Positions 5,635 through 62,457 of a DNA stretch of 64,000 nucleotides are shown one piece after another. Below the pieces are notes generated by a model. That model made no database searches, was not told the origin of the DNA, and saw only the letters and a program-made list of their open reading frames with translations. The stretch's first letter is position 1; each line of letters begins with the position of its first letter. The translations under genes were made by a program, and so were the position numbers. This stretch comes from Corynebacterium liangguodongii (GTDB taxonomy: Bacteria; Actinomycetota; Actinomycetes; Mycobacteriales; Mycobacteriaceae), in contig NZ_CP026948.1 in NCBI RefSeq assembly GCF_003070865.1, forward strand, positions 1,550,001 through 1,614,000, read 5' to 3'.

Positions 5635-6557
5635 CCGCGCAGCACCTCCAGCGCCCGGTTGAGGTCCTCCGGGTAGGGTGAGGAGACCTCCATGAACTCG
5701 CCGGTGCGCGGGTGAGTAAAGCCCAGCGTCGCGGCGTGGAGCCACTGCCGCGTAAGGCCGACGCGTGCGGCGAGGGTGGGATCGCTGCCGTACATCGGGT
5801 CCCCCACGCAGGGGTGCCCGACCGCGGAGAAGTGCACGCGGATCTGGTGGGTGCGCCCCGTCTCGATGTGGATCTTGAGCAGGCTGGCCTCACGGAAGGC
5901 CTCGATAAGCTCGTAGTGGGTCACGGCGTGGCGCCCGCTCGTCGTCACCGCGAACTTCCACCCGGAAGACGGGTGGCGGCCAATCGGCGCGTCGATCGTG
6001 CCAACGATCGGGTCGGGCAGCCCCTGGACCACCGCATGGTAGGTCTTTTCCACGGTGCGTTCCTTAAAGGCCCTCTTGAGCACCGAATACCCCTGGATGC
6101 TGTTTGCCACGACCATGACCCCGGAGGTGCCCACGTCGAGGCGCTGGACAATGCCTTTGCGCTCGGGCGGCCCGGCGTCGGGAAGCGTGTAGCCCATGGC
6201 CTGGAGCCCGCCGACGACCGTCGGCCCCTCCCACCCCAGCGTCGGGTGGGCGGCGACGCCGACGGGCTTATCCACCGCGATGACGTCGTCGTCGTGGTAG
6301 AGGATCTCTAGCCCATCGACGCGCTCCGCCTTCGGCATGGGGGCTTGCTTGGGGTCGGGCAGCGTTGCCTCGAGCAGCGCCCCGGCGCGCACGCGGTCGG
6401 ATTTGGAGACCTGTGTGGCGTCGATAAGCACTGCCCCGGCGGTGACGATGTCTGCCGCCGCGCTGCGCGAGAGCCCGAAGAGCTTGGACACAGCGGCATC
6501 CGCGCGCAGCCCATCGAGCCCCTCCGGGATCGGGAGGGCGCGGTACTCACCCGACAT
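5631..6557 (-). CDS. rluD: RluA-family 23S rRNA pseudouridine synthase
   Basis: A 308-residue enzyme that isomerises uridines in 23S rRNA, most likely RluD type. An S4 RNA-binding domain occupies about residues 14-75 ([18 protein letters not shown]) and the catalytic domain follows. The catalytic aspartate lies in QRLDVGTSG near residue 140, the RLD motif of the RluA family; RTHQIRVHF is present towards the C terminus. The ATG at 6557 (MSGEYRALP) overlaps the 3' end of lspA by 11 bp, and its own stop overlaps the next gene, so lspA-rluD-5110 gene is one transcription unit. An exact copy of the 13-mer repeat encodes LIDA in the S4 domain. Confidence 0.93.
6417..6429 (-). repeat. dispersed 13-mer copy 1 (GCTTATCGACGCC)
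   Basis: Exact copy, minus orientation, inside rluD, read in the phase CTT-ATC-GAC-GCC (Leu-Ile-Asp-Ala). Confidence 0.6.
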
Positions 6558-7071
6558 CGGCCTGCCCCCGTTTCTCGGTGCGCCCGGCGGCGTACTCGGA
6601 GGCGAACACCGCCGCGACGAAGACGGCCACACCGGTCGTAATCGCGGCGTCCGCGATGTTGAACACGGCGAAGTTCCCCACCGAGATGTAGTCGACAACG
6701 TGGCCGAACCAGAAGCCGGGCTCGCGGAAGAGGCGATCGAGGAGGTTGCCCAGCGCACCCCCGGCGATCAGCGCGAGCCCGAGCGCCTCGAAGCGCCCCG
6801 TGATCCGCGGTGCAGCGATGAGCGCGCCGAGAACGAAGGCTAGCTGGATCGTTGTGAAGATCCACGTCGATCCCTGCCCCATGGAGAAGGCCGCTCCGGG
6901 GTTGAACAGGAGGTAGAGGCGGAACCAGTCGCCGATGAGGTAGACCGGCACGCCCGGCTCGAGCTGGCTGAGCATGAGCTGCTTGACCACCTGGTCCGCG
7001 GCCGCAACGGCCGCCATAATGCCGAGGATGAACCAGCTCCACCGGCCTCGAGTTTGTGTTGTTTCCTCCAT
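6547..7071 (-). CDS. lspA: lipoprotein signal peptidase (signal peptidase II)
   Basis: A 174-residue, four-helix membrane aspartyl protease that cleaves prolipoproteins before the lipidated cysteine. The two catalytic aspartates are in GNLLDR (about residue 121) and FNIADAAI (about 149), and the NPGAAFS motif is present. It would process the several lipoproteins of this window. The ATG at 7071 ([11 protein letters not shown]) was chosen; GTG at 7080 is possible. It is the first gene of the lspA-rluD unit and divergent from the lipoprotein gene at 7159. Confidence 0.94.
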
Positions 7072-7081
7072 TGTCTTCACT

Positions 7082-7108
7082 ACTCTAGCCCGTCTCCCCC
7101 CTCGACAA
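7082..7108 (-). promoter_or_regulatory. candidate lspA promoter
   Basis: Minus strand TTGTCG and TAGAGT with a 15-base spacer, the -10 lying about 10 bases before the lspA ATG. The intergenic region is shared with the divergent lipoprotein gene. Confidence 0.4.
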
Positions 7109-7158
7109 TGAGTTTCGGCGTCCACGGGGTAAGGCGCGGGGTGAGGTAGGTTCGATGT

Positions 7159-8079: not shown

Positions 8080-8083
8080 CACC

Positions 8084-9760
8084 GTGGTCGCACCTTTGCA
8101 CATCGGACTCGACGGCGTGTCCTTCGCCTACCCCGGCGGCCGCCGGGTGCTCACGGACGTCTCCTTCGCCGTCCCCTCGGGTTCCGTCACCGGCTTGATC
8201 GGCGAGAACGGGGCCGGAAAGTCCACCTTGCTCCGCATCATTTCCGGCTCGCTCGCCCCCGCGCGCGGGCGCGTGGTCACACCGCCGCGCACGGGTTTTA
8301 TCGCCCAAGAAACCTCGCTGCCCTTCAGCGAGCCCGCTTCCGCGCTTATCGACGCCGCAGTCGCCGAACTCCGCGACATCGAGCGCGACATCGCTACCCT
8401 GTCGGAGAAGTTCTCCGCCGAGCCGGACTCACCGGTGCTCGCCGCGGACTTCGACCGGGCGCTCGCCCGCGCGCAGAACTCCGGGGTGTGGGAGCTCGAC
8501 GCGCGCATCGCCTCCGTGCTCGCCGGCCTCGGCCTCGATGGCGTGGCTCTTACCACCCCGCTCGGCGAGATGTCCGGCGGGCAGCGCCGCCGGTTCGCCC
8601 TGGCCACGCTCCTGCTGCGCCCCGTCGACGCGATGGTTCTCGACGAGCCGACCAACCACTTAGACGACGCCGCCGTGGACTTCCTCGTCGGCGAGCTCGA
8701 CGCGTTTAACGGCCCGGTGCTCGTCGCCTCCCACGACCGCTACTTCCTCGACGCGGCCTGCGACGGGCTGGTTGACCTCGACCCCGCCCTCGGCGCAGAG
8801 GGCGGCTACGGTGAGGACACGCGCCAAGGCGCGCGGTTTACCGGGACCTTCAGCGACTACCTCAAGGCCCGCCATGCCCGCCGCGAGCGCTGGGCCAGCG
8901 ACTACGCCGCCCAAGAACACGAGCGGGAGCGGCTGGAAAAGGCCACTGCCCAGGGCTCGGACGATGTGTTCCACTCCGAGGAGAACAAGAGCGAGACGAG
9001 GGTGGCGGCGAAGTTCTACGCCGACAGGGCCGCAAAGACCGTAGGCGCCAGGAGGCGCTCCGCGCAGTCCCGCCTCGAGGCCCTCGAGCGCGCGGAGATC
9101 CCTCCTCCCCCCGCCCGGTTGACGTTCCGCGGCCTACCGCCGCACACGGCCACGAGCCTCGGCGTGCCCGCGGTGGTGGCCAAGGGGCTTGAGGTCGACG
9201 GGCGGCTCGCACCGCTCGACCTCAAGCTACAGCCCGGCGAGCAGCTGCTAGTGGAGGGGCCGAACGGCTCGGGTAAGTCGACCTTGCTGAAAATCCTCGA
9301 CGGCACCCTCAAGCACTTCGGCGGCGAGCTCGTCGTTCCGGAGGAGATCACGATCGCCCGCCTTGAGCAGGACGATGCGTGGTCCGACCTCGGCCGCACC
9401 GCCGCGGAGGTCTACGCCCCGCGCACCCCCTCCCTCGTCGAGCTCGGGCTCTTGAGCGAGGAGCAGGCGGCCACTGCGCTAGCCGATCTCTCCCTCGGTC
9501 AGCGCCGCCGCGTCTCCCTCGGCATGATCCTGGCCACCCCGCCAGACCTCCTCTTGCTCGACGAGCCCACGAACCACCTCTCCCTCGTCCTCGCCGAGGA
9601 GCTGGAAGAGGCGCTACTGGATTTTTCCGGCACCGCGATCATCACCAGCCACGACCGCTGGCTCCGGCGCCGCTGGCGCGAGCGCATCGCTCGCGGAGAT
9701 TCCCGCGCGCGGGTGCTCACGCTCTCGACGCTGTGGACCGAGGAGGTCTGGCGGGAGTAG
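8084..9760 (+). CDS. ABC-F family ATPase (ribosome-associated type)
   Basis: A 558-residue protein with two ABC cassettes and no membrane segment, the ABC-F layout. Cassette 1 has Walker A GENGAGKST (about 41-49), signature MSGGQRRR and Walker B VLDEPTNHLDD. Cassette 2 has GPNGSGKST, LSLGQRRR and LLLDEPTNHLS. A charged inter-cassette linker (about 255-345, RRERWASDYAAQEHERER) corresponds to the P-site tRNA interaction motif region. Family members act on the ribosome, some as translation factors and some protecting against antibiotics; this sequence does not decide which. GTG at 8084 has GGAGC eight bases upstream, and it follows the lipoprotein stop by 4 bp. Confidence 0.88.
   Translation: MVAPLHIGLDGVSFAYPGGRRVLTDVSFAVPSGSVTGLIGENGAGKSTLLRIISGSLAPARGRVVTPPRTGFIAQETSLPFSEPASALIDAAVAELRDIERDIATLSEKFSAEPDSPVLAADFDRALARAQNSGVWELDARIASVLAGLGLDGVALTTPLGEMSGGQRRRFALATLLLRPVDAMVLDEPTNHLDDAAVDFLVGELDAFNGPVLVASHDRYFLDAACDGLVDLDPALGAEGGYGEDTRQGARFTGTFSDYLKARHARRERWASDYAAQEHERERLEKATAQGSDDVFHSEENKSETRVAAKFYADRAAKTVGARRRSAQSRLEALERAEIPPPPARLTFRGLPPHTATSLGVPAVVAKGLEVDGRLAPLDLKLQPGEQLLVEGPNGSGKSTLLKILDGTLKHFGGELVVPEEITIARLEQDDAWSDLGRTAAEVYAPRTPSLVELGLLSEEQAATALADLSLGQRRRVSLGMILATPPDLLLLDEPTNHLSLVLAEELEEALLDFSGTAIITSHDRWLRRRWRERIARGDSRARVLTLSTLWTEEVWRE
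8344..8356 (+). repeat. dispersed 13-mer copy 2
   Basis: Exact GCTTATCGACGCC on the plus strand in the ABC-F gene, phase encoding Leu-Ile-Asp-Ala. Confidence 0.6.
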
Positions 9761-9769: not shown

Positions 9770-10351
9770 CTACAGCGCCGGCGCGGGCGCCGGTGCCCCG
9801 CCCTCGGCCGGAGCGGGCGCCGGTGCCCCGCCCTCGGCCGGCGCTGCCGATTGGCACATCGGCGGGACCTGCTCGGGCGGCAGGGCGTGGGTGACCAGGG
9901 TGCAAGCCCAGGTCTTGGAGAGCTTCCAGTAGCCGTTCTCAAAGACGAATTCGACGTTGTCGGCGAGCTGCGCGCCCTGCTCCGGCTGGTTGAAGCTTAC
10001 CGTCGCGAGCACGGAGTTGGGTTCGTAGCCGGGCAGGACCGGGTCGACGACGTGGAAGTTGGCGCCGGACTGCTGCTGGGACTGGGCCATGACGTCGAAA
10101 AGCTCGGGCGCGGTCTCGCCGCCCTGGACGGTGTTGACGCGCTCCTCCATGGGCACGGCCGGGTCGGTCGCGCGCGCGAGGACACCGTTGAGGTCCGCGG
10201 CGCTTGGCAGCTCGGCGGCGGGCGCGGCCTCGGCGGACGAGGCGACGGTGGAGGTCTCCGACGGCGTGGTCTCCGCCTCGTTGGAGCAGGCGGCTACGCC
10301 CATGGTTGCGCCCAGGGCCACGACGGCCGCGGCGATGTTCCTTGCGTTCAC
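9770..10351 (-). CDS. MTB12/CFP-2-like secreted lipoprotein
   Basis: A 193-residue exported protein. The signal peptide MNARNIAAAVVALGATMGVAAC has lipobox VAAC, followed by a Thr/Ser/Ala linker and a domain (about 55-165) resembling the low-molecular-weight antigen MTB12 (CFP-2) of mycobacteria: DPAVPMEERV near the start and a FENGYWKLSKTWAC segment. The C-terminal 25 residues are two copies of a Pro-Ala-Glu-Gly decapeptide from a 30 bp tandem duplication. GTG start at 10351 has AAGGAG ten bases upstream. It converges on the ABC-F gene and is divergent from ansA. Role unknown; probably cell-envelope. Confidence 0.8.
   Translation of the reverse strand: MNARNIAAAVVALGATMGVAACSNEAETTPSETSTVASSAEAAPAAELPSAADLNGVLARATDPAVPMEERVNTVQGGETAPELFDVMAQSQQQSGANFHVVDPVLPGYEPNSVLATVSFNQPEQGAQLADNVEFVFENGYWKLSKTWACTLVTHALPPEQVPPMCQSAAPAEGGAPAPAPAEGGAPAPAPAL
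9783..9842 (-). repeat. 30 bp direct tandem duplication in the MTB12-like gene
   Basis: Two near-identical 30 bp units (starting 9783 and 9813) keep frame and encode the Pro/Ala-rich tail. Such tracts often vary in copy number between strains. Confidence 0.85.
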
Positions 10352-10434: not shown

Positions 10435-11364
10435 ATGACTTCTCCCCAGCCCGGCGACACGTTCGTCCTCGTTATTTCCACCGGCGGCACCATCGCCTCC
10501 ACGACCGACCCTTCGGGCGCCCTCGTGCCCACGCTCGACGCCCAAGAGCTCACCCGGCGCGCGGACGCCGACGAGCCGGTGCGCGTGTTCGACGCCGCGC
10601 GGCTCGATTCCTCGGCGATGGGGCTCGGCGATATCGATACGCTCTCTTCGCTCGTGAGCAGGGCGCTTGGCGACGCCCTCGTCACCGGCATCGTCATCAC
10701 CCACGGCACCGACTCCATGGCCGAGACGGCGCTCGCGCTCGACCTTATCCACTCCGACCCGCGCCCCGTCGTGCTCACCGGCGCCCAGCTGCCCGCCGAC
10801 CACGGCAGCGCCGACGGCCCGGCCAACCTGCGCCGCGCCATCGAGCTCGCCGCGGACCCGCTGACCCGCGGCAACGGGGTGTTTGTGCACTTCGGCGGCG
10901 ACACGCTGGCCGCGCGCGGGCTGCAGAAGATCGATACCGCCGCCCGCCGCGCCTTTGCGCTGACCGCGCCGCTGACATTGCCGCGCCCGGCGGCGGTGGA
11001 GCGCGCCCCGCTGGCCGGGATAGACGTGCCGATCGTGCGCGCGTGGCCCGGCGCGGACGCCGCGCTGCTGGACTGGGTGGCCTCCAGGCGCCCCGACGGC
11101 ATCGTCGTCGAGGCGCTCGGCTCCGGCAACGTCTCGGACGAGATGGGCGCCGCGGTGGGCCGGGCCGTCGCCGCGGGTATCCCGGTGGTGGTGGCCACCT
11201 CTGTGCCCTTCGGTGAGGTCGCGTTCTCCTACGGCGGCGCTGGCGGCGGGGCCTCCCTCGGTGCGGCGGGCGCGCTTCCCGCGGGTTACTTGCGCGCCGG
11301 CCAGGCCCGCATCGCACTCGCCACCGCGATCGCCACCGGCACCGACCCACGGGCGCTGCTCTAG
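10435..11364 (+). CDS. ansA: L-asparaginase
   Basis: A 309-residue asparaginase/glutaminase-family enzyme that hydrolyses L-asparagine to aspartate and ammonia. The N-terminal nucleophile region reads STGGTIAST (about residues 14-22) and the second catalytic motif VITHGTDSMAETA occurs near residue 85; both threonines and the Thr-Asp pair are present. A late proton-relay region around DGIVVEALGSGN is also seen. No signal peptide, so it is probably cytoplasmic. It is divergent from the MTB12-like gene and convergent with dinB. Confidence 0.92.
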   Translation: MTSPQPGDTFVLVISTGGTIASTTDPSGALVPTLDAQELTRRADADEPVRVFDAARLDSSAMGLGDIDTLSSLVSRALGDALVTGIVITHGTDSMAETALALDLIHSDPRPVVLTGAQLPADHGSADGPANLRRAIELAADPLTRGNGVFVHFGGDTLAARGLQKIDTAARRAFALTAPLTLPRPAAVERAPLAGIDVPIVRAWPGADAALLDWVASRRPDGIVVEALGSGNVSDEMGAAVGRAVAAGIPVVVATSVPFGEVAFSYGGAGGGASLGAAGALPAGYLRAGQARIALATAIATGTDPRALL

Positions 11365-11446: not shown

Positions 11447-12816
11447 GAATCCCCATCCAGCCAGTCCCCCCAGGCCAGGGAGTCCACCGGGTCGGCCGGG
11501 CGCAGATCCGGGTCGCTCTCGCGCAGACTCACCGCGCGGCCCGGGCCCGTTTCGCGCGTCTCGAAGCGAACCGTGACCCAGCCGTGGCCCGCGCCCTGGA
11601 TCCAGCCGTGGCCGTAATCGGGGTGGAAGACGTCCTGCGTGGCGCGCCACCCCTCGGCCTCCCCCACGTCCGGCGCCGCGGCCTCCCCTGCCTCGTGGTC
11701 GCTCACGCCGACCTCGAAGTCCGCCTCTGCGCCGCCGGGGGCGACCTCGCGATCCAGCTCCGGGAACAGAACGTCCTGCAGGGTCTCCTCCAGCCCGGAG
11801 TAGCCCACGCCGACGAGCCGGATCGGGCCGACCTCGCCCGGGTAGCGCACGAGCTTGAAGGCGATGGCGGTCAACGTCTCGGCGTCGTCGGTGGCGTACG
11901 GCAGGCTGAGCGAGCGCGACTCGATGCGGAAATCCGCCATGCGCAGCTTTACGGTGACGGTGCGCGCGCCGCGGCCGTCGCGAAGCAGCCGCTCGTGCGC
12001 TGCCTCGGCGGCCCGCCGCAACGCCGCGTCCACCTCCGCCGCCGTGTGCAGGTCGCGCGGGTAGGTGTGCTCGGCCGAGACCTGCTTCGCCTCGGCGCGA
12101 GGCCGCACCTCGCGCTCGTCGATGCCCTGGGCGAGCCGCCACAGCTGCTTGCCCACGACCCCTCCCAGCGTGATCTCCACCTCCCGCTCGGACAGCGCGG
12201 CGAGCTCCCCGATGGTCTTAACCCCCACCGCCGCCAGCTTGCCCTGCGTGACCGGGCCGGCTCCCCACAGCTCGCCCACCGGCAGCGGCCCGACGATCTC
12301 GTCTTGCCGCTCGCGCGGGATGATGAACACCCCGTTCGGCTTGGCCTGCCCGGAGCCGATCTTCGCGTACTGCTTGCCGCTACCCGCGCCTATCGACGAC
12401 GGCAGGCCCGTGACCTCCCTAATCTCCGCGCGCAGCCGGTTGGCCCACTCGCGCACCTCCCCTGGCGTCGCGCCCTGGAGTTCTTGCGGCTCCATGTAGG
12501 CCTCGTCGATGGAGAGGCGCTCGAGCACGTCGACGCGGCGGGAAATGACCTCGAAGACGCGTTTCGACGCCACCGAGTACACCGCCTTCCTCGGCGCCAC
12601 CAGCACCGCCTTCGGGCCGACCAGTCGCGCGGCGTGGTGCGTCGGCATCGCCGAGCGGGCCCCGTAGGCGCGGGCCTCGTAGCTGGCGCCCGCGACCACT
12701 CCGCGCCCGCCCACCCCGGCGACGAGCACCGGGCGGCCTCTAAGCGTCGGGCGGGTGAGCTGCTCGCAGGAGGCGAAGAACGCGTCCATGTCGATGTGCA
12801 GCACCCAGCGGTCCAT
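11440..12816 (-). CDS. dinB: DNA polymerase IV (Y family)
   Basis: A 458-residue translesion polymerase. HIDMDAFFASCEQ at the N terminus carries the first metal-binding aspartates and LSIDEAYM (about residue 105) the second catalytic pair; the thumb and little-finger regions follow. The C-terminal 90 residues are an acidic extension ending in DSLAWGDWLDGDSA, seen in actinobacterial DinB proteins, and no clear QLxLF clamp motif is visible at the very end. ATG at 12816 opens the conserved MDRWVLHIDMD. I see no SOS box in front of it. The gene is bracketed by inverted copies of an intergenic repeat. Confidence 0.93.
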   Translation of the reverse strand: MDRWVLHIDMDAFFASCEQLTRPTLRGRPVLVAGVGGRGVVAGASYEARAYGARSAMPTHHAARLVGPKAVLVAPRKAVYSVASKRVFEVISRRVDVLERLSIDEAYMEPQELQGATPGEVREWANRLRAEIREVTGLPSSIGAGSGKQYAKIGSGQAKPNGVFIIPRERQDEIVGPLPVGELWGAGPVTQGKLAAVGVKTIGELAALSEREVEITLGGVVGKQLWRLAQGIDEREVRPRAEAKQVSAEHTYPRDLHTAAEVDAALRRAAEAAHERLLRDGRGARTVTVKLRMADFRIESRSLSLPYATDDAETLTAIAFKLVRYPGEVGPIRLVGVGYSGLEETLQDVLFPELDREVAPGGAEADFEVGVSDHEAGEAAAPDVGEAEGWRATQDVFHPDYGHGWIQGAGHGWVTVRFETRETGPGRAVSLRESDPDLRPADPVDSLAWGDWLDGDSA

Positions 12817-12947: not shown

Positions 12948-15900
12948 TCAGCGGTTCTTCACCACGTTCGCGCTGACCCCGGCGACGATGTCGAAGGCAC
13001 CCGCGCCCTCGCTGGCCACCTCGAAGGAGGTCGCGAGTGTCTCGGCGGCGATGTGCTCTGAGTGGGCGCGCGCCCACTCGCCCTTGTCCTCCGGCACGAA
13101 GAGCTGCACGGAGATGCGGTCGGAGACCTCGAAGCCGGAGGCCTTGCGGGCGTCCTGCAGGCCGCGGATGACATCAGCCGCCCACCCCTCGGCCTCGAGT
13201 TCCTCGGAGAGCTGGGTGTCGAGGACGACGAGGCCATCGGCGCCGTCGATACGCGCGGTGGACTCGGGGTTCTCGGCCACCAGGCGCTCCGTATAAAGCT
13301 CAGGCGTCAAAACGATGTCGCCGTCGACGACGACGTTGTCGCCCTCGCGCACGTAGTTTCCGGCCTTGACGTTCTTAATCGCGCGCTGGACGTCCTTGCC
13401 CAGCGTCGGGCCGGCGACCTTCGCGTTGACCACGACGTCGAAGGAGCCGGCGGAGGCGACGTCGTCAGTAAGCACGACCTCCTTGACGTTGACCTCGTCG
13501 CGGATGACGGCGACGAACGGCTGCAGCGCGCCCGAATCCGGCAGCGCCACCGTGAGGCTGCTCAGCGGCAGGCGGTTGCGCAGCTTGTTGGACTTGCGTA
13601 CCGACGACGCCGCCGAGCACACCGCGCGGGTGGCGTCCATCGCCGCGACGAGCGCGTCGTCTGCCGGGATCTCGGCGGCGCGCGGGTAGTCGCTAAGGTG
13701 CACCGAGCGCTTTGCCGTGAGCCCCCGCCAGATCACCTCGGTGATGTACGGCAGCAGCGGGGCGGCGACGCGGCAGGTGATCTCGAGGACCGTATACAAG
13801 GTGTTGAAGGCCTCCGGGTGCGCCTCCTGGCCCTCCCAGAAGCGCTCGCGAGAACGGCGCACGTACCAGTTGGTCAGGGTGTCGGCGAACTGGCGCAGCT
13901 CATCGCAGGCATCCGCGATGCGGGTGTCCTCGAGCGCGGCGCCGACGCCTTCGGCCAGGTCGTGCGTCTTGGCCAGGATGTAGCGGTCGAGCACGTCGGT
14001 GGAATCCACCGACCAGGTGGCCTCCTGCGAGGAGTAGAGCTGCAGGAAGGTGTACGCGTTCCAGATCGGCAGCAGCGCCTGGCGCACGCCCTCGCGGATG
14101 CCCTGCTCTGTGACGATGAGGTTACCGCCGCGCAGGATCGGGCTGGACATAAGGAACCAGCGCATCGCGTCCGAGCCGTCGCGGTCGAAGACCTCGAAGA
14201 CATTCGGGTAGTTGCCCTTCGACTTCGACATCTTCAGGCCGTCGGAGCCGAGCACGATGCCGTGGGCGACGACCTTCTTAAACGCCGGGCGGTCGAACAG
14301 CGCGGTGGCGAGGACGTGCTGGACGTAGAACCAGCCGCGGGTCTGGCCGGAGTACTCGACGATGAAGTCCGCGGGCTGGCGCGCCTCGAACTCTTGCGTG
14401 TTTTCGAACGGGTAGTGGTACTGCGCGAACGGCATGGAGCCGGACTCGAACCAGCAGTCAAGCACGTCGGGCACGCGGCGCATCGTGGACTTGCCCGTCG
14501 GGTCGTCGGGGTTGGGGCGGGTCAGCTCGTCGATGTGGGGGCGGTGCAGGCTTTCGGGGCGCACACCGAAGTCGCGCTCGAGCTCGTCGAGGGAGCCGTA
14601 GACGTCGACACGCGGGTAGGCGGGGTCGTCGGAGACCCAAGCCGGCACCGGCGAGCCCCAGTAGCGGGTGCGCGAGATGTTCCAATCGCGCGCGCCTTCG
14701 AGCCACTTGCCAAACTGTCCGTCGCGGATGTGCTCCGGGATCCACTCGATCTGCTGGTTGAGCTCCACCATCCGGTCGCGGAACTCGCTGACCTTGACAA
14801 ACCACGCGGGCAGCGCCATGTAGATCAGCGGCTCGCCCGAGCGCCAGGAGTGCGGGTAGGAGTGGACGATCGTCTGGTCGCGCAGCACCCGGCCGGCCGC
14901 CTTCAGGTCCCGGATGATGTCACGGTTGGCGTCGAAGACGAGCTTGCCTTCGTACTCCGGCACGAGCGAGGTGAACTTGCCGTCCGCGTCGACGGGGATG
15001 ACCAGGTCGATGCCGTACTTCGACGTGGTGGCCATGTCGTCCTCGCCAAACGCCGGGGCCTGGTGGACGATGCCGGTGCCGTCCTCGGTGGAGACGTAGT
15101 CGGCCACGAGCACCATAAAGGCGTTCTCCTGGTCGGCGAAGTAGTCGAACACCGGGGTGTACTCCAGGCCCTCAAGCTCGGCGCCGGCAAAGGTGGCCAG
15201 CACCTCAGGCTCCTTGCCCAGCTCCTTGGCGTAGGCGCCGACGAGGTTCGTGGCAAGCAGCAGGGTGCGCCCGACAAACTCGGGTGCCCCGTCCTCACCG
15301 ACGCGCACCAGGGAGTACTCGATTGCGGGCCCGACGGCGAGCGCGAGGTTCGACGGCAGCGTCCACGGCGTGGTGGTCCAGGCGATGGCGGCGGCGTCGT
15401 GGAGCTCGGGGTGCTGCGCCCACGTCTGCTTCGCCGGGAAGCCTTCGCGCGCGCCGGTGAGCGGGAGTGTGACGGTGACGGTGGGGTCCTGGCGGTCTCG
15501 GTAGGCGTCGTCAAGCCGCGTCTCCTGGTTCGACAGCGGCGTGTGCTCCGCCCAGGAGTAGGGCAGCACGCGGAAGCCCTGGTAGATCAGTCCCTTGTCG
15601 TAGAGCGCCTTGAACGCCCACATGACCGACTCCATGAAGTCGGCGTCCATCGTCTTGTACCCGTTGTCAAAGTCCACCCAGCGCGCCTGGCGGTTGACGT
15701 AGTCCTCCCACTCGCCGGCGTAGTGCATCACCGACTTCGCGCAGTACTCGTTGAACTTCTCCAAGCCCATGTCCTCGATCTGGGCCTTATCGGTGATGCC
15801 GAGCTGTTTTTCCGCCTCGAGCTCGGCGGGTAGGCCGTGGCAATCCCAGCCGAACACGCGCGGGACGTGGTAGCCGGTCATCGTGCGGAAGCGCGGCACG

Positions 15901-20055: not shown

Positions 20056-21330
20056 CTAGCGCAGGAAGTCGGGGACATCGACGTCGTCGGCGCGGCCCCC
20101 GCGGTAGGTCTCGCGGTAGTCGTCGCGGCGCTCCTCGCGGTCGGTGAACAGGCCGCTGCGGCGCTCCTCGTAGCGGTGGCGCGGCTCGTAGGTCTCGCGC
20201 TCTTCGCGGGGCTCGCGGGGCTGGCGGGGCTCAGTCTGGTCGGCGGGGGGCTGAGAGCGGTCGTCGAAAAGCGAGCCGCGCTGCGGCGCGGGCGTCGGGG
20301 TCTCCGCGGCCGCGTCCTGCTCGACGTTGACGGCGCGCGAGACGGTCTCGTTCTGCGGTGCGGGCGCCTCGGTGCGCGCGTTGGCGTTTTCGTCGAAGCC
20401 GGTGGCGATAATCGTCACGCGCACCTCGTCGCCGAGGTTGTCGTCGATAATCGTGCCGAAGATGATGTTGGCGTCGTCGTCGGCCTTCTCCTCGACGATG
20501 GAGGCAGCGTCGTTGACCTCCATCAGGCCCAGGTCGGAGCCGCCGGCCACCGAGATGAGCACGCCCTTCGCGCCCTCCATCGTCGCCTCGAGCAGGGGCG
20601 AGTTGATCGCCTGCTCGGTGGCGGCCATGACGCGGTTATCCCCGCGCGCGGAGCCGACACCCATGAGCGCGGAGCCGGCATCCGCCATCACCGAGCGCAC
20701 GTCGGCGAAGTCGACGTTGATCATGCCCGGGATGGTGATGAGGTTGGTGATGCCCTGGACGCCGTTGTAGAGCACCTCGTCGGCGGCGCGGAATGCCTCC
20801 ATCATGGACAGCTCGGCGTCGCCAAGCTGGAGCAAGCGGTCGTTCGGGATGACGATGACGGTATCGCAGACCTCTTTGAGGTTGGCGATGCCCTCCAGTG
20901 CCTGGCGGGTGCGGCGCTTGCCTTCGAACGAGAACGGGCGGGTGACCACGCCGATGGTCAGCGCCCCCATCTTCTTGGCAATTCCGGCGACGACCGGGGC
21001 GGCGCCGGTGCCCGTGCCGCCGCCCTCGCCCGCGGTGACAAAGACCATGTCGGAGCCCTTGAGCGATTCTTCGATCTCTTGCTTGTGATCCTCCGCGGAG
21101 GTGCGGCCGACCTCGGGGTTGGCTCCTGCCCCGAGCCCGCGGGTGGCCTCGCGGCCGATGTCGAGCTTGGTGTCGGCGTCTGTGAACAGCAGCGCCTGCG
21201 AGTCGGTGTTGACGGCGACGAACTCGACGCCCTTCAACCCTTCCTCGATCATTCGGTTCACGGCGTTGACGCCGCCTCCGCCAACTCCGACGACGCGGAT
21301 CATGGCGAGGTAATTAGCGGGAGAGGTCAT
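20056..21330 (-). CDS. ftsZ: cell division GTPase FtsZ
   Basis: A 424-residue tubulin homologue forming the Z ring. [13 protein letters not shown] (about 14-26), the tubulin signature [10 protein letters not shown] (about 104-113) and the T7-loop [11 protein letters not shown] (about 202-212) are intact. After residue 320 comes a long linker rich in Pro, Gln, Glu and Arg (about 90 residues), ending in the conserved VDVPDFLR tail that binds SepF and FtsW. ATG at 21330 gives [16 protein letters not shown] 160 bp gap with its own regulatory sites separates it from ftsQ. Confidence 0.98.
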
Positions 21331-44979: not shown

Positions 44980-45492
44980 TCAACATGTGGACACGCGGCC
45001 GCCGGGGTCGAGCGGCAAGGCGGCCTGGCAGGCTTTGAACTTCGCGAGGTTATGGCGGGCGTCGACAAGCGCATCGTGGTTACCGCTCGGCAGATCGGGC
45101 AGCTTCGGGCGGCCTGCCATCTCCCAGTACTGCTTGAGCTCTCGGGTGTAGCGCGGCAGCTCGCGCGGCAGCTCCGACATATCGCCCCAGAGCTGCGCGA
45201 GCACGACGTGGTCGTAGGCTCCCACCCACGCCCACAGCTCGGGCCGGGAATCGCCGTGGGTGAGAAAGTCGAACACCCCACCGCGGATGACGTCCTTGCG
45301 CCGCCATTGTGGGGCGGACGGGCTCGGCAGCTTATCCAGCACGTTCTCGCGCACCCACCGGTTCGCCTTCGCCGGGTCGAACTCCGTGGACACGGCGTAG
45401 TACTCGCGCCCGTCCTCAGTCACGATCCCGATAGAGACTAACTCGATGGTGACCCCATCCTCGAGGAATTCCGTGTCGTAGAAGTAGCGCAC
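44980..45492 (-). CDS. RNase AS (3'-exoribonuclease, Rv2179c-like)
   Basis: A 170-residue DEDDh exonuclease. RYFYDTEFLEDG gives the first Asp-Glu pair, a central aspartate lies around GAYDHVVL, and SGNHDALVDARHN holds the histidine and last aspartate. The homologue in mycobacteria digests adenylated RNA 3' ends. GTG 45492 was chosen because GGAAG is eight bases upstream and homologues begin RYFYD; GTG 45501 overlaps the preceding stop. It is the last gene of the minus-strand run starting at plsC or glk. Confidence 0.9.
   Translation of the reverse strand: MRYFYDTEFLEDGVTIELVSIGIVTEDGREYYAVSTEFDPAKANRWVRENVLDKLPSPSAPQWRRKDVIRGGVFDFLTHGDSRPELWAWVGAYDHVVLAQLWGDMSELPRELPRYTRELKQYWEMAGRPKLPDLPSGNHDALVDARHNLAKFKACQAALPLDPGGRVSTC
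45058..45070 (-). repeat. one-mismatch copy of the 13-mer
   Basis: GGCGTCGACAAGC on the plus strand (rc GCTTGTCGACGCC) within the RNase AS gene. Confidence 0.3.
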
Positions 45493-47422: not shown

Positions 47423-48583
47423 TTAATCTGCAGGACAATCGGGAGCGCGCACAAGGTCGTAAAGCCTGCGCCCGAGCACCTCCCAGCTAAACGCCTCCTG
47501 CACGAACGCCCTCCCGGCGCGCCCCATCTCGCGGCGGCGCGAGGGATCACCGAGCAGCTCGATGAGCACGGCCGCCACCTCGCCGCGGTCGCGGCCGTTG
47601 ACCACCACGCCGGTGCCGGGCCCCACCGTCTCGGGCGCGCCGCCCGAGCGCCCCGCCACCACGGGCACGCCGCACGCGGCGGCCTCGAGGTAGACGATGC
47701 CTAGGCCCTCGACGTCGAGCCCGCCGCCGCGGGTGCGCGCCGGCATGGCAAAGACGTCCGCGGCGGCGATGATATCGCGCAGGTCCTCGCGCCCGACGGC
47801 GCCTGTGAAGAGCACCGCGCCGGCGCTGCCCCTCGCGCGCCTGCGCAGGGAGCGCTCGTATGGCCCCGAGCCGACGATGACTAACCGGGCGCCCGGGATG
47901 GCGCGGGTGACGGCCGGCAAGGCGTCGATAAGCACGTCCTGGCCCTTTCGCGCCACCAGCCGCGAGGCGCACACGATGAGAGGGCCGGCACCGAGCCCGA
48001 AGCGCCTCCTCGTCTCGGCGGCGCGCTCTTGCGAGGCGGGACGGAAAAAGCCGGTATCCACCCCAGACGGCAGAGCCGCAAACTCCGGTTCCGCGCCGGA
48101 GGCTCCCAGCGCCCCGCGGCACCGGCCAAGCGTGTAGCGGGAGACGTAGGTGATCGCGTCCGCGCCCCGCCCGATGACACCCAGCGCCTGGCGCGCGACG
48201 GGGAGCATCGCCCAGCCCACCTCGTGTCCGTGGGTGGAGGCCACCACGCGCCGCGCCCCTGCCGCCCGCGCCGCGGGAGCCATCAGCGCCAGCGGGGCTG
48301 CCGCCCCGAACCAGACAGTCTCCACCCCGTAGCGCGCTATGATCTCGCGCATCGTGCGCGCGGTCGCCGGGGTCGGCAGCATGACGCGGCGCGGCCAGCG
48401 GATGACGGTGTAGCCCACGCTCGCGTCGAACTCGCGCGCCGCCTCCGCATCCTGCGTCGAGGCGAAGACGACCAGCTCGTCCGCGCCGGCGATGCGGGCG
48501 AGCTGGTCGGAAAAATCGCGCAGGTAGGACTGGATCCCGCCCACGGTGGGCGGGAAGTCGTTGGTGACCAGGAGCGTCGGCAT
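47423..48583 (-). CDS. pimB: GT4 mannosyltransferase PimB-like
   Basis: A 386-residue GT-B glycosyltransferase (family 4). TNDFPPTVGGIQSYL opens the acceptor domain; GVDTGFFRP, VASRLVARKGQDVLIDAL and EGLGIVYLEAAACGVPVVAG are donor-domain motifs with the EX7E pattern. By position next to the NlpC genes it matches the PimB' enzyme that adds the second mannose to phosphatidylinositol mannoside. ATG 48583 lies 16 bp after the NlpC/P60 stop. An exact 13-mer copy lies within. Confidence 0.9.
   Translation of the reverse strand: MPTLLVTNDFPPTVGGIQSYLRDFSDQLARIAGADELVVFASTQDAEAAREFDASVGYTVIRWPRRVMLPTPATARTMREIIARYGVETVWFGAAAPLALMAPAARAAGARRVVASTHGHEVGWAMLPVARQALGVIGRGADAITYVSRYTLGRCRGALGASGAEPEFAALPSGVDTGFFRPASQERAAETRRRFGLGAGPLIVCASRLVARKGQDVLIDALPAVTRAIPGARLVIVGSGPYERSLRRRARGSAGAVLFTGAVGREDLRDIIAAADVFAMPARTRGGGLDVEGLGIVYLEAAACGVPVVAGRSGGAPETVGPGTGVVVNGRDRGEVAAVLIELLGDPSRRREMGRAGRAFVQEAFSWEVLGRRLYDLVRAPDCPAD
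47921..47933 (-). repeat. dispersed 13-mer copy 6
   Basis: Exact copy, minus orientation, in pimB, phase encoding Leu-Ile-Asp-Ala. Confidence 0.6.
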
Positions 48584-52829: not shown

Positions 52830-54052
52830 TAGGACTTACGCTCCCAGAATGCCGGGCCAACGGGCTCAATGAAGTTTCCGTTGGCAACGAGGTAACCTTC
52901 TTCATCCACTGTCACAGGCAACTGCGGCAGCGCACGCGCGGCCGGCCCGAAGATCGGCTTGCCGTAGTGCAATGCGTCGAACTGCGACTGGTGGCACGGG
53001 CACAAGATGCGGTTCGTCTGTGCCTCGTACAGCGACGTCGGACAGCCGATGTGGGTGCAGATCTTCGAGTACGCGTAGTAGTCGCCGTAGTGGAACTCCT
53101 CCTGGCCCTTACGCTCGACGACGCGCTTGGCGTCCTCGGTGCGCAGGCGGATAAGCATGACGGCGTTGCGCGGCCCGTGGATCGAGTGCATGTGGTTTTC
53201 GTAGACGTCGCGGCCCGCGTCGTAGGTGGAGCCGTCGTTGACGTCCTCCTCATAGAGCGGGAAGACCGTCTCCATCGAGGCGGCGGCGAGGTCCTCCGGG
53301 CGCATACGCACGAGGCGGGAAATCCCCGCGGTGGTGTAGTGGCTTCCGCCCTCGCCGTGGTGGAGCTCTGCAATCGCACCGGTATCACGGCCGAGGTAGA
53401 CCTTCACGCCTTCCTCGGCCTTCGTCCACCCGTGGGTCCACAGGGTGCCGTCGCCGTGGTAGCCCATCTCGGTGCGCGGACGCCACGGGTTCTTCACCAT
53501 GCCGCCAAGAGGGGCGACGATCATGAGGCCCGAGAGCAGGCCCGCTCCGCCGAGCAGACCCATCATCACTTTGCGACGCCCCAGGGTCGAGGTCTCCCAG
53601 GCGTCGTTAAGCAGCGCCGTGGTCGTGCGGCGATCAAGCTCGCTGGAGCGGCCGTCGTGGCGGCGCTGCACCGAGATTTCCTCGGGGATGAACTTCTTCA
53701 CGTACTGGATGATCGCGATGCCCAGGGAACCAAGGCCCAGCATCGAGGTCAGGCCCAGCAGCGGGGTGTAGAGGGTGTAGATCCACAGCCCGTCGTCGCC
53801 GTGGAACTTCGGCTCCCACGGCCAAAACAGGTAGACACCGAAAAACGCGATGCCCATGAGGATGGACAGCGCCAGCCAGAAGTTGACGTTCGCCGCGGCG
53901 GACTTCTCGCGCGGATCACCCTCGACCGGGTAGCGCTCCTTGCGGTAGGCCACCGTCACATCGTCGAGCTCGGTACCGAGAGCGGCGAGCTCGGCGTTGT
54001 TCATGCGGTCAAGCTCCGCATTCGTGTAGTTCTTCTTCACTTCATTGCTCAT
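52829..54052 (-). CDS. qcrA: cytochrome bc1 complex Rieske iron-sulfur subunit
   Basis: A 407-residue Rieske protein with three transmembrane helices (about 55-75, 90-112 and 165-185), the actinobacterial arrangement. The 2Fe-2S ligands are in CTHIGC (about residue 333) and CPCHQSQF (about 352). Start ATG 54052 ([13 protein letters not shown]) overlaps the qcrC stop as ATGA. It passes electrons from quinol to the cytochrome cc subunit in the bc1-aa3 supercomplex. Confidence 0.96.
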
Positions 54053-58116: not shown

Positions 58117-60039
58117 ATGTGCGGTCTCGTCGGCTTTTTGGCAGCCAACCGCGACGCATCGGAATACATCGGCGCCGTCGAGGGGGCTTTGCCCTGCATG
58201 TACCACCGGGGGCCGGATGCGGCGGGGACCTGGAACGACTCTGACGCCGTCTTCGGTTTCAACCGGCTGGCCATTATCGATATCGCCCATTCCGACCAGC
58301 CGCTGCGCTGGGGACCGGCCGAGGACCCGCAGCGCTACGCGCTGGTGTTTAACGGGGAGATCTACAACTACCTCGAGCTGCGCGAGGAGCTCACCGCCGC
58401 GGGATACACCTTCGCCACCGAGGGAGACGGCGAGACGATCGTGGTGGGCTACCACCACTTCGGTAAGGCCGTAGTCGAGCACCTGCGGGGCATGTTTGCG
58501 TTCCTCATCTGGGATACCCGCACCCGCACGATGTTCGCGGCCCGCGACCAGTTCGGGATCAAACCGCTCTACTTTGCCACTACCCCGCGCGGCACGGTGT
58601 TTGCCTCGGAGAAGAAATCGATCCTCGCGATGGCCGAGGCCATAGGCCTCGACCTCGGGCTCGACCGCCGCGCGATCGAGCACTACGTGGACCTGCAGTA
58701 CGTGCCCGAGCCCGAGAGCCTCCACGGGGGGATCAGGCGCGTGGAATCCGGGTGCACGGTCACGCTCCGCCCCGGCGAGGAGGTCTCGCCGCGGCGCTAC
58801 TTCCGCCCCTCGTTTTCCACCACGCCCGTGCGCGGGGGCTCCGAGCAGGAGCTGTACAAGGCTATCGCCGGGGCGCTGGAAGATAGCGTCGAAAAGCACA
58901 TGCGTGCCGACGTCACAGTCGGCTCCTTCCTCTCTGGCGGCATCGACTCGACCGCCATTGCCACCCTGGCCAAGCGCCACAACCCCAACCTGTTGACCTT
59001 TACCACGGGGTTCGAGCGGGAGGGCTACTCCGAAGTCGACGTCGCCGCCGAATCGGCCGAAGCCATCGGCGTCGAGCACATCGTCAAGATCGTCAGCCCC
59101 GAGGAATTCGCCGGCGCGATCCCGGAGATCATGTGGTACCTCGATGACCCCGTCGCAGACCCGGCCCTCGTCCCGCTCTACTTCGTGGCACAAGAGGCGC
59201 GCAAGCACGTCAAGGTCGTGCTCTCCGGCGAGGGCGCCGACGAGCTCTTCGGCGGCTACACCATCTACAAAGAGCCGCTCTCGCTCGCGCCGTTTGAGAA
59301 GATCCCCGCCCCGCTCAACCGTGGCCTCAACCGGTTAAGCCGCATCCTGCCCGAGGGCATGAAGGGCAAGAGCCTGCTCGAGCGCGGCACCACCCCGATC
59401 GAGGACCGCTACTACGGCAACGCCCGGTCGTTCAACTTCGCCCAGCTCCAGCGCGTCATCCCCTGGGCCAAGCCCGAGTGGGATCACCGCGAGGTCACCG
59501 CCCCCATCTACGCCGCCTCCACCGAGATGGACCCGGTGGCGCGGATGCAAAACCTCGACCTGTTCACGTGGATGCGCGGAGACATCCTGGTCAAGGCGGA
59601 CAAGATGAACATGGCCAACTCCTTGGAGCTGCGCGTGCCCTTTTTGGATAAGGAGGTCTTCCGGGTCGCCCAAACGATCCCCGTCGACCAAAAGATCACG
59701 CACGGCACCACCAAATACGCCCTGCGCAAGGCGATGGAGTCGATCGTCCCGGCGCACGTGCTGCACCGCAAGAAGCTGGGATTCCCGGTCCCGCTGCGCC
59801 ACTGGCTCGCCGGCGACGAACTCTACGGGTGGGCCGAGGACACCATCAAGGCCTCCGGCACCGACGAGATCTTCAACATCCCCGAGGTCCTCGCGATGCT
59901 CAAGGAGCACCGCGAGGGGGTAAGCGACCACTCCCGGCGCCTGTGGACGGTGCTGGCCTTTATGATCTGGCACGGCATCTTCGTCGAGCACCGCATCGAC
60001 CCGGGCATCGAGCGCAAGGACTACCCCGTCACCCTTTAG
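58117..60039 (+). CDS. asnB: glutamine-hydrolysing asparagine synthetase-like amidotransferase (LtsA type)
   Basis: A 640-residue class II glutamine amidotransferase of the AsnB family. Cys2 after the initiator Met is the glutaminase nucleophile (MCGLVGFLA); the PP-loop SGGIDS (about 272) and GEGADELFGGY (about 372) belong to the synthetase domain. In Corynebacterium glutamicum the 640-residue orthologue LtsA amidates meso-diaminopimelate of peptidoglycan precursors and gives lysozyme and temperature sensitivity when lost; size and position beside ctaC match. ATG 58117 has AGGAGG ten bases upstream. Confidence 0.94.
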   Translation: MCGLVGFLAANRDASEYIGAVEGALPCMYHRGPDAAGTWNDSDAVFGFNRLAIIDIAHSDQPLRWGPAEDPQRYALVFNGEIYNYLELREELTAAGYTFATEGDGETIVVGYHHFGKAVVEHLRGMFAFLIWDTRTRTMFAARDQFGIKPLYFATTPRGTVFASEKKSILAMAEAIGLDLGLDRRAIEHYVDLQYVPEPESLHGGIRRVESGCTVTLRPGEEVSPRRYFRPSFSTTPVRGGSEQELYKAIAGALEDSVEKHMRADVTVGSFLSGGIDSTAIATLAKRHNPNLLTFTTGFEREGYSEVDVAAESAEAIGVEHIVKIVSPEEFAGAIPEIMWYLDDPVADPALVPLYFVAQEARKHVKVVLSGEGADELFGGYTIYKEPLSLAPFEKIPAPLNRGLNRLSRILPEGMKGKSLLERGTTPIEDRYYGNARSFNFAQLQRVIPWAKPEWDHREVTAPIYAASTEMDPVARMQNLDLFTWMRGDILVKADKMNMANSLELRVPFLDKEVFRVAQTIPVDQKITHGTTKYALRKAMESIVPAHVLHRKKLGFPVPLRHWLAGDELYGWAEDTIKASGTDEIFNIPEVLAMLKEHREGVSDHSRRLWTVLAFMIWHGIFVEHRIDPGIERKDYPVTL

Positions 60040-60679: not shown

Positions 60680-60685
60680 TAGCCT
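60680..60685 (+). promoter_or_regulatory. -10 element of a probably leaderless DUF3043 gene
   Basis: TAGCCT in TTGTAGCCT ends 7 bases before GTG 60693 with no ribosome-binding site between. Confidence 0.4.
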
Positions 60686-60692
60686 GGGACGC

Positions 60693-61451
60693 GTGAGAAT
60701 TCCGTGGCAGAAATCCGATAGCGAGGGCGGTTCGACGGCGATCGAGCTGCCGAAGGAGCCCGCAGGCCCCAAGGGCTCGGCCAAAAAGAACGCAGGTGCG
60801 TCCCGCGAAAGCGCCGGGCCTAGAGCCCAGGGCGACGCGCCGCTGCCCAAGGGCTATACCCCGCCGAAGGGCCGCCCCACCCCGAAGCGCCACGAGCAGG
60901 AGATCAAGCGCGGGGTGGTGCGCGACCCGAACGCGCTCACACCGGCGCAGCAGGCTCAGCGCAACAAGGAACTGAAGAAGTCCATGTCCCCACAGGAGTG
61001 GAAGGACTACAAGAAGCGCCAGCGCGAGCAGCGCCGGGAGGCAACCCGCGAGGCCCAGGCGAGGATGGACGCCGGCGATGAGCGCTACATGCTCGACCGC
61101 GACAAAGGCGAGGTCCGCGCCTTTGTGCGCGACTGGGTGGACTCGCGGCGCTTCATCAACAACTGGGTCATGCCGGCGGCGCTGGTCATCCTCGTGTTGA
61201 CGTTCGCGGTGTCCTACGCCACCCCGCAGGTTGCCAACGCGATCTCGTTGATCTCACTGGCGTTTATGATCACCATCATCGCCGAGGCGTTGATCATCGG
61301 CCGCGGTGCCAACCGCGCCGTGACGCAGAAGTTCCCGGGCAGCGGCGAGACCGGGTTTGCGCTCGGCATGTACGCCTTCTCCCGTGCCACCCAGCCGCGC
61401 CGCTGGCGCACCCCGAAGCCGCGGGTTGCCGCGGGCAAGAAGGTCAACTGA
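60693..61451 (+). CDS. DUF3043 membrane protein
   Basis: A 252-residue protein of the actinobacterial DUF3043 family. A long basic, Lys/Gln/Arg-rich cytoplasmic part (about 1-140, KGYTPPKGRPTPKRHEQEIKRG, then repeated QRE/KKRQREQRRE) precedes two transmembrane helices (about 152-172 and 178-198) and a basic tail. Function unknown. GTG 60693 opens MRIPWQKSDSEGG. The stop is one base before the CobT-like start. Confidence 0.88.
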   Translation: MRIPWQKSDSEGGSTAIELPKEPAGPKGSAKKNAGASRESAGPRAQGDAPLPKGYTPPKGRPTPKRHEQEIKRGVVRDPNALTPAQQAQRNKELKKSMSPQEWKDYKKRQREQRREATREAQARMDAGDERYMLDRDKGEVRAFVRDWVDSRRFINNWVMPAALVILVLTFAVSYATPQVANAISLISLAFMITIIAEALIIGRGANRAVTQKFPGSGETGFALGMYAFSRATQPRRWRTPKPRVAAGKKVN

Positions 61452-61452
61452 C

Positions 61453-62457
61453 GTGAACGGGCAGCCTCACACGAGCAGCCGGGAGCTGTTTCGGGGCGTC
61501 GATACGCCAGACGAAGCCGCCGCGGCGCAGGTGCGCGAGGCCCTCGCGGCCTCGGTCCGCGGGCGCTCGTTCGGCCGCCTCGGGGAGATCGCGGCGTGGG
61601 TGGCCGCGTGCCAGTCGGAGACCGTGCCCGCCCCGTTTGAGCGCCCCCGCGCCATCGTCGTGGCGGGCAACCACGGCGTCGCGACCCGCGGCCTGTCCGC
61701 GTACGCCCCAGAGGCCTCGGCCGCGCAGGTCGAGGAGATCCGCTCCGGCGGCGGGCCCGGGAACAGCGTGGCGCGGGCCGCGAACTCCTCGCTGCGGCTT
61801 ATCGACGCCTTCGTCACCGCCCCCTGCGGCGCCATCGACATCGAAGACGCCATGAGCGCCGAGGAGTTCGATCGCGCCCTGACGCTGGGCGTGGAGGTGG
61901 CTGATCAGGAGGTCGACGCCGGCACCGACCTCATCATCCCCGGCGATGTCGGGGTGGGAAACACCACCGTTGCAGCGGTTGTGTTCGGCGTGCTCACCCG
62001 TACAGAACCCGTCGTCGCGGTGGGCCGCGGGAGCGGGATTAGCGACGATGTGTGGAAGGTCAAGGTCGCCGCGGTGCGCGACGCCATGTTCCGCTGCCGC
62101 GACTTCGCCGACGACACCGAGCGCGTCCTGCGGGTCGCCTCCTCCCCCGACTTCGTCTTCCTCGTCGCGCTTATCGCGCAGGCCGCGGTGCGGCGCACGC
62201 CCGTGCTTATCGATAGCGCCTACGGCGCGGTGGCGGCCTTCGTTGCCGAAAAGCTCGCCCCCGGCACCAAGCGGTGGCTCGCGGCGGGACAGCTCAGCCC
62301 GGAGCCGTGCCACACCGTCTGCGTCCAGGCGCTCGGGTTGACCCCCGTCCTCGCCCTCGACATGTCCACGGGTCAGGCCGCGGGGTCGCTGCTCGCCCTT
62401 CCCGTCATCAACACCGCCGCAGAGCTCGTCGGCGAGGAGCTCGGCGGCCGCGAGTAG
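61453..62457 (+). CDS. CobT-like nicotinate-nucleotide phosphoribosyltransferase
   Basis: A 334-residue protein of the CobT family, which forms alpha-ribazole phosphate from dimethylbenzimidazole and NaMN in cobamide synthesis. Family features: VAGNHGVATRGLSAYAPEASA (about 72-92), GGGPGNSVAR, GDVGVGNTT (about 170) and LALPVI near the end. The expected RLGEGTGA loop with the catalytic glutamate reads STGQAAGS here (about 312), so the general base is apparently Gln, and GEMGIGNTT is GDVGVGNTT. No cobU/cobS neighbour is in this window. GTG 61453 follows the DUF3043 stop by one base. Confidence 0.8.
   Translation: MNGQPHTSSRELFRGVDTPDEAAAAQVREALAASVRGRSFGRLGEIAAWVAACQSETVPAPFERPRAIVVAGNHGVATRGLSAYAPEASAAQVEEIRSGGGPGNSVARAANSSLRLIDAFVTAPCGAIDIEDAMSAEEFDRALTLGVEVADQEVDAGTDLIIPGDVGVGNTTVAAVVFGVLTRTEPVVAVGRGSGISDDVWKVKVAAVRDAMFRCRDFADDTERVLRVASSPDFVFLVALIAQAAVRRTPVLIDSAYGAVAAFVAEKLAPGTKRWLAAGQLSPEPCHTVCVQALGLTPVLALDMSTGQAAGSLLALPVINTAAELVGEELGGRE
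61797..61809 (+). repeat. dispersed 13-mer copy 7
   Basis: Exact GCTTATCGACGCC in the CobT-like gene, phase encoding Leu-Ile-Asp-Ala. Confidence 0.6.

Follow-up and report, generated by a model that had tools for sequence, protein, structure and literature searches.

A short bipartite word, GCTT-NN-CGA[C/T]G, is repeated hundreds to thousands of times in most of the Corynebacterium genomes sampled here and, judged by its sequence and distribution, is probably a DNA uptake sequence of this genus. It came to light in a 64,000-nucleotide stretch of the Corynebacterium liangguodongii chromosome (G000:C1:1550001-1614000, hereafter the window; the genome, G000, comprises 2,357,924 bases in one contig), where an initial annotation had pointed to a 13-mer, GCTTATCGACGCC, in seven exact copies on both strands. 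The word itself, its two dialects with C or T at position 10, the switch of one dialect into the other in place and its confinement, among the family members sampled, to this genus are shown. Of the four roles suggested in the initial annotation, an uptake sequence is preferred because of the copy number of the word, its lack of polarity, its dialects and its repeated absence, together with the presence of comEA, comEC and tad genes; the word may be a tag by which DNA of a cell's own kind is recognised.

All seven copies of the 13-mer are present in the window at the positions and on the strands reported, and the accompanying assertion that chance would yield far less than one copy is borne out: sites that differ from it by one base or none number 18, compared with a mean of 0.09 and a maximum of 2 in 100 dinucleotide shuffles. 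Over the whole of G000 the exact 13-mer occurs 83 times forward and 66 times in reverse, against 0 and 0 for a control with the letters reversed, and in a 464-kb sample of this genome (the window and 20 further stretches) 45 copies stand against an expectation of 0.2-0.5. A chance origin is rejected by the shuffles, the reversed-letter control and the expected counts alike. The 13-mer is thus over-represented as claimed, but it is not the recognised unit. Its single-base variants in the 464 kb are most numerous at position 5 (26 together), followed by positions 12 (12), 3 (11, of which 10 carry G) and 6 (8), with at most 3 together at each remaining position; freeing positions 5 and 6 gives GCTTNNCGACGCC with 108 copies, 45 of which have AT there, and G at position 3 with the same two positions free adds 30 more. 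The unit is instead bipartite, GCTTNNCGA[C/T]G, with softer flanks: in G000 a core GCTT-NN-CGACG has C at +13 in 93% of copies and a preference for C at +12, and beyond +13 C is also preferred at +16, +22 and +25, distinctly so mostly among sense-phase copies. This C form, GCTTNNCGACG, occurs 482 + 455 = 937 times in the whole of G000, compared with 29 + 45 = 74 for the reversed-letter control, and GCTTNNCGAYG is non-palindromic, its complement being CRTCGNNAAGC. An insertion target or a transposon-borne repeat would also be dispersed on both strands; however, no extended repeat recurs around the 45 exact 13-mers, just the word itself and the preference for C at some downstream positions, and the copies in the window lie inside predicted genes, so that for the G000 sample this explanation is already refuted.

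The spread of the word was assessed in an even sample of 151 genomes from the genus, with class limits of our own setting: at least 250 copies and three times the control for C-rich, at least 400 copies for T-rich, a minimum of either 90 C copies at 1.5 times the control or 130 T copies at 6 times the control for weak, and the remainder negative, G142 being assigned by hand to a class of both. On these limits 103 genomes are C-rich, 8 T-rich, 1 both, 7 weak and 32 neither. The C-rich genomes hold 280-1891 copies (median 1090; control median 65), typically about one per 2 kb (range 1.3 to 9 kb). The T form, GCTTNNCGATG, is present in 625-1184 copies in the 8 T-rich genomes, where the C form stays near the control, and G142 carries 1337 T and 352 C copies. 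The original 13-mer is found at least once in 125 of the 151 genomes, often in just a few copies, and 0-2 times each in 140 genomes from 30 other genera of the family; there GCTTNNCGAYG reaches 0.23-2.67 times its control (ratios worked out by hand), compared with 10.6 in G000. A profile search of genome contigs with an alignment of the TadA ATPase returned 80 loci, one of them titled Corynebacterium, from a metagenome-assembled genome of C. urealyticum in which the word is at baseline (108 versus 78 in the control).

An unbiased scan for gapped words in 40 kb places GCTTNNCGACG first in G029 (z 14.6) and GCTTNNCGATG first in G111 (z 13.6). Applied to four word-less genomes, 36 kb each, the scan found nothing exceeding z 8.1, and a substitute word of equal strength is thereby rejected for these four. 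A pool of 15 word-less genomes gave words up to z 17.4, which shared homology could explain because the stretches are mostly orthologous. Among weak genomes, the top words in 234 kb of G084 reached z 10.1 but were unrelated to this one, and G119 yielded a repeat array alone.

Selection at the DNA level and a dialect switch in place

Genes were predicted with a codon model trained on the genome itself. Of the 188 copies sampled in G000, 128 fall in the single sense frame G CTT NNC GAC GNC (Leu-X-Asp-[Ala]), as might be expected if the word were a by-product of a protein motif or of codon usage. Yet the other 60 lie in different phases, on the other strand or in no predicted gene (42 in two antisense frames, 7 in other frames, 11 outside predicted genes), and the leucine of that frame is CTT in 129 of its 173 contexts (0.746), as against 0.082 of 12,311 leucines overall. 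As this preference is far above the general usage, a protein motif cannot account for the word. The same holds for G029 (54/72), G111 (45/54) and G094 (30/39), where the overall shares of CTT are 0.070, 0.126 and 0.129, and in the T dialect the same context uses GAT in 45 of 49 and 30 of 31 cases. The dialect switch at a single base speaks against a by-product as well. The by-product explanation is already refuted, and the initial annotation's view that selection acts on the DNA and not on a shared protein motif receives strong support from synonymous choice, from the phases and both strands, and from the switch in place.

Relationships were traced with the HRQ1-like helicase gene beside the tad locus, in a tree built by a quick method for 84 of 90 genomes (G066, G073 and G141 gave no match; G040, G116 and G127 were too short). 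On its starred branches the T-rich label changes at least 3 times and the word-less label 5 times, counts that do not separate gain from loss. Nineteen word-less genomes form one supported clade, with G039, G014, G132 and G082 (the last on a long branch) elsewhere, and G004, which is C-rich, groups as sister with G006 and G105, both T-rich, with a value of 100 in the Shimodaira-Hasegawa-like approximate likelihood ratio test (SH-aLRT).

It is this last pair that reveals the switch. Along a 65-kb alignment of G004 and G006 (81% identical), the C-words are not conserved as such at orthologous sites (0 of the 36 with an aligned partner), but 22 are compensated in place by T-words, the other 14 sites being without a word. 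In the reverse direction, 46 T-words of G006 face 24 C-words, 3 T-words and 19 sites without a word; the two directions share sites and are hence non-independent. For a further 13 C-words and 14 T-words the alignment offers no partner, and words of the opposite dialect (5 and 3) were excluded from the counts. Outside words, where CGA-G is kept, the CGACG of G004 is again C in 59 cases and T in 38 (p 4.5e-8 versus words), and the CGATG of G006 is again T in 212 cases and C in 48 (p 2e-13 versus words). Leaving aside the tenth, the fixed positions of the word agree in 256 of 289 cases, compared with 1392 of 1767 for the flanks. The stretches have G+C contents of 0.633 and 0.606, and a gap of 2.7 points is too small for composition to explain 22 out of 22. 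Given this switch at aligned sites, the simplest cause would be a trans-acting reader whose specificity changed, and the pattern is hard to explain without one.

A purely mutational origin of the difference, for instance if the C at position 10 were methylated and then deaminated, would suit the fact that all 22 words persisting at aligned sites changed one way, and at a CpG. Deamination alone could turn C into T, but the T-words are kept with a synonymous choice of their own, which weakens the idea: CTT is favoured before GAT in the T genomes as well (the 45/54 and 30/39 given above), T-words are retained at 3 of 3 sites (G094-G111) and 3 of 4 (G111-G150) compared with 14% at random places, and the T-rich genomes hold 625-1184 copies. 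We regard a mutational product as highly improbable.

Retention was compared over tad stretches of 10.5-20 kb, with small numbers summed by hand. Between word-rich genomes of the same dialect the word is kept at 36 of 57 aligned sites, in 12 comparisons of which some are bidirectional and one involves a pair 95% identical, and at random places all nine fixed positions are retained in 6-66% depending on the pair; G067 and G096 keep the word at just 1 of 5 sites. Word-less partners keep 0 of 10 aligned words (G142 to G014, G080 to G039), with some remnants differing by one or two bases; G098 to G132 offers no aligned words, and the weak genome G128 keeps 0 of 2.

Candidate readers of the word

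A DNA receptor at the surface or membrane, part of the path formed by the Tad/Flp pilus and ComEA/ComEC, would bind the word in free DNA. Fragments bearing it would be taken up and recombined more often, word-bearing alleles would spread, and the word would accumulate on both strands at permissive, mainly synonymous places. Drift in the specificity of the receptor would convert the same sites to a new dialect, and loss of specific uptake would let the words erode. We infer that the reader serves uptake, that it resides on the pilus or is ComEA itself, and that the driving force is uptake bias followed by recombination. The fuller proposal is that this genus-wide word belongs to a third uptake-sequence system, which evolved independently and would be without precedent among Gram-positives, read by a receptor of the Tad/Flp pilus or by ComEA, with dialects that isolate species and that have rewritten much of one genome's words in place; towards this we lean only slightly.

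The machinery for such a path is widespread. The ComEC family is found in 151 of 151 genomes and a TadA-like ATPase in 148 of 151 at an E-value of 0.001 (145 over the curated cut-off). In G006 the ComEA-like, ComEC and DNA polymerase III delta families follow in a row, and G000 has similarly placed open reading frames of 215, 546 and 312 amino acids. The tad locus of G000, between a HAD-family gene and the helicase, includes an ssd-like gene that matches no family model, then tadA, two T2SSF genes (tadB/C-like) and a TadE/G-like gene; by tblastn the ssd-like gene has a match in 56 of 56 word-rich genomes examined and none in 18 of 27 word-less ones. The large word-less clade has a distinct type of TadA, seen in tad loci of word-less genomes such as L084, L090 and L094, with a four-residue insert and differing ends, in an alignment of 9 of 10 sequences, three of them from this clade (G084, with a stop in the chosen range, was left out). 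The median open frame of ComEC is 554 amino acids in word-rich and 713.5 in word-less genomes (150 genomes, G001 not entered, uncorrected for kinship). In the dialect pair G004/G006, identity is 77% for ComEC, 72% for the ComEA-like protein, 70% for the TadC-like protein and 62% for the pilin region (read in the wrong frame), compared with 89% for DNA polymerase III delta and 90% for the helicase; this comparison is uninformative because two neighbouring open reading frames without a known link to competence are equally low, at 70-71%.

Several observations weigh against a role in uptake. ComEC and TadA occur in word-less genomes too and so do not predict the word, and five word-rich drafts (G021, G075, G092, G113, G118) lack a TadA-like match over the cut-off; two of them are less than 80% complete, yet G021 is 99% complete. 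The differences in TadA type and ComEC length come mostly from a single 19-genome clade, for which reason the association of machinery and word is given little weight and is not counted as independent evidence, and in three word-poor genomes, G014, G082 and G132, the tad locus is still of the word type. Compared by identity only, the tad and com genes of the dialect pair single out no receptor. No report of natural transformation in the genus was found among the literature matches listed, mainly from the open literature. Inverted pairs of the terminator type are not enriched in G000 or G029. In favour of uptake, the 20-kb stretch G000:C1:2120001-2140000, which carries the portal, terminase, minor capsid and tape-measure genes of a prophage, holds zero words where about 8 are expected; it is 1 stretch of 21, noticed for being empty. 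A terminase search of phages showed no corynebacterial phage among the matches listed (30 of 1,540 records).

The main rival to an uptake sequence is a site for an intracellular protein that binds, modifies or repairs DNA (a HIP1-like site, a core methyltransferase target or a nucleoid-protein site, the initial annotation having also suggested a methylation target and a nucleoid-protein site), kept by selection for that function, with dialects that track its specificity. The switch in place points to a trans-acting reader of changing specificity here as well, and the baseline counts outside the genus and the even spread of the word fit equally. Spacing is indeed near random or slightly even, the variance-to-mean ratio per 2 kb being 0.84 in G000 and 0.90-1.31 in three other genomes; gaps shorter than 100 bp fall below the Poisson expectation in G000 (4 of 168) and G029 (3 of 92) and exceed it in G111 (6 of 67, 2 of the 6 on opposite strands) and G094 (3 of 48, all 3 opposite). 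However, restriction sites are commonly avoided rather than enriched and HIP1 is a palindrome, whereas the present word is neither avoided nor palindromic; we know of no classical restriction-modification type with an asymmetric 11-base word and a two-base gap; and repeated absence in close kin of word-rich genomes would be odd for a core function. An intracellular reader therefore appears rather unlikely, at a level that still commands attention.

A Chi-like recombination word or an FtsK-orienting word (like the FtsK-orienting polar sequences, KOPS), both suggested in the initial annotation, would likewise be non-palindromic, genome-wide and present in hundreds of copies. Such a role is disfavoured by the absence of replichore polarity in G000, where, with the origin placed at base 1 from GC skew and not checked by dnaA, the two orientations count 54/42 and 45/47 in the replichore halves (464 kb) and the 83 forward 13-mers divide 35/48 between the chromosome halves; forward and reverse sums over all C-rich genomes are 55,403 and 55,233. 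That a single genus should have two dialects and repeatedly be without the word also speaks against it, and we hold it to be very unlikely.

If the uptake-sequence reading is true, the genus would provide an independent actinobacterial case for asking why such words evolve, through the contrast of 112 dialect-rich with 32 word-less genomes, and the aligned sites of G004 and G006 would constitute a natural experiment on a change of reader specificity and on the pace at which about a thousand sites follow it. Much of the genus would then be suggested to be naturally transformable with self-recognition, now or until recently, and the word would offer a simple route to the conditions of competence in the genus.

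Copies in the window and local repeats

The looser word GCTTNNCGACG has 22 copies in the window, the 13-mer being its commonest form. The two codon phases described for the 13-mer are right, the sense copies reading G CTT ATC GAC GCC. All eight one-mismatch forms reported earlier exist (3064, 5467, 19404, 35317, 38528, 40107, 45058 and 61495), to which three are to be added (5898-, 53600- and 57056+). The gene names proposed for the window were compared with NCBIfam models for 8 proteins: murE and, for the gene called rluD, the RluA family are over the curated cut-off, as is ftsZ; ftsQ, murG, ABC-F and cobT are the best-matching models, yet below their cut-offs; and the gene called pimB is matched by glycosyltransferase models alone, all under cut-off.

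Copies of the 13-mer and of the looser word in the window (sense and antisense refer to the predicted gene)
Element	Position	Strand	Context
Exact 13-mer	6417..6429 (word 6419-6429)	-	sense phase, RluA-family pseudouridine synthase gene
Exact 13-mer	8344..8356	+	sense phase, ABC-F-like gene
Exact 13-mer	21694..21706	+	antisense in ftsQ
Exact 13-mer	24154..24166	+	antisense in murG
Exact 13-mer	31400..31412	+	antisense in murE
Exact 13-mer	47921..47933 (word 47923-47933)	-	sense phase, glycosyltransferase gene
Exact 13-mer	61797..61809	+	sense phase, cobT-like gene
Word GCTTNNCGACG, form GCTTCCCGACG	6176..6186	-	sense
Word, form GCTTTTCGACG	10093..10103	-	sense
Word, form GCTTGGCGACG	10665..10675	+	sense
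Word, form GCTTCGCGACG	11976..11986	-	sense
Word, form GCTTGACGACG	15506..15516	-	sense
Word, form GCTTTTCGACG	20262..20272	-	sense, ftsZ
Word, form GCTTGGCGACG	20817..20827	-	sense, ftsZ
Word, form GCTTGCCGACG	25470..25480	-	sense
Word, form GCTTTTCGACG	35317..35327	+	antisense
Word, form GCTTCTCGACG	40107..40117	+	sense
Word, form GCTTTTCGACG	42976..42986	+	sense
Word, form GCTTGTCGACG	45060..45070	-	sense
Word, form GCTTGTCGACG	46760..46770	+	antisense
Word, form GCTTAACGACG	53602..53612	-	sense
Word, form GCTTTTCGACG	58887..58897	-	antisense

Other over-represented words that were checked are local repeat clusters. Clustered short inverted repeats with units TGTGACATCTC / CCCAGGTGGTCAC lie at about 958-18,257 of locus L025 and about 12,500-12,670 of L021; short units, CTCTGCAGCTGC (of which 13 are on the plus strand) together with TTGCAGAGT, follow one another 34-122 bp apart along 8891-10063 of L011; and a 24-unit array with a 64-base period at 14760-16233 of L072, from the relative G119, resembles clustered regularly interspaced short palindromic repeats (CRISPR).

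Comparison with known systems

Over-representation throughout a genome is shared with HIP1 of cyanobacteria, Chi and KOPS; HIP1 is palindromic and Chi and KOPS are polar words, and the present word is neither. To our knowledge, uptake sequences are known from Neisseriaceae and Pasteurellaceae only, the two families named as such in passages of PMC7811141. Among the literature matches listed, no report of an uptake sequence in Gram-positives appears, and those retrieved for the word itself treat, by title, other subjects. The statement in the initial annotation that no description of it was known agrees with these matches, which come mainly from the open literature and include none; in passages of PMC5217627, Corynebacterium is mentioned for CRISPR only.

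The closest parallel is the DNA uptake sequence of Neisseriaceae, described in parts of PMC3630211 as having thousands of copies, clade-specific dialects, a case of two dialects within a single genome and family members that show no evident word, and the receptor ComP matches its dialect according to passages of PMC3868556. The Corynebacterium word resembles it in being short and non-palindromic, in hundreds to thousands of copies with no general orientation bias, in its clade dialects, two-dialect genome and word-less members, and in the preference for one orientation within genes, which passages of PMC2346458 report for known uptake sequences (PMC3630211, PMC2346458). It differs in its unrelated sequence, its bipartite form with a free dinucleotide, and its occurrence in a high-GC Gram-positive genus that has a Tad/Flp instead of a type IVa pilus. 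Inverted terminator pairs, which are common among known uptake sequences and not defining, are the feature for which G000 and G029 show no enrichment.

With the uptake signal sequence of Pasteurellaceae, a 9-mer in about 1300 copies in H. influenzae (in passages of PMC5217627), the word shares a high copy number, copies within genes and an alternative motif in a subclade (PMC5217627, PMC2346458); its sequence and phylum are different, as are the flanking C residues at +13, +16, +22 and +25, beyond +13 mainly in one codon phase. Finally, a precedent for the proposed path exists in another actinobacterium, Micrococcus luteus, whose transformation depends on Flp pili together with comEA and comEC, as set out in passages of PMC4322843. 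The terms 'uptake sequence' and 'Corynebacter' are absent from the main text of that account (PMC4322843), while the genes it describes, comEA, comEC and tad, are also those of Corynebacterium, a combination said there to be frequent in actinobacteria.

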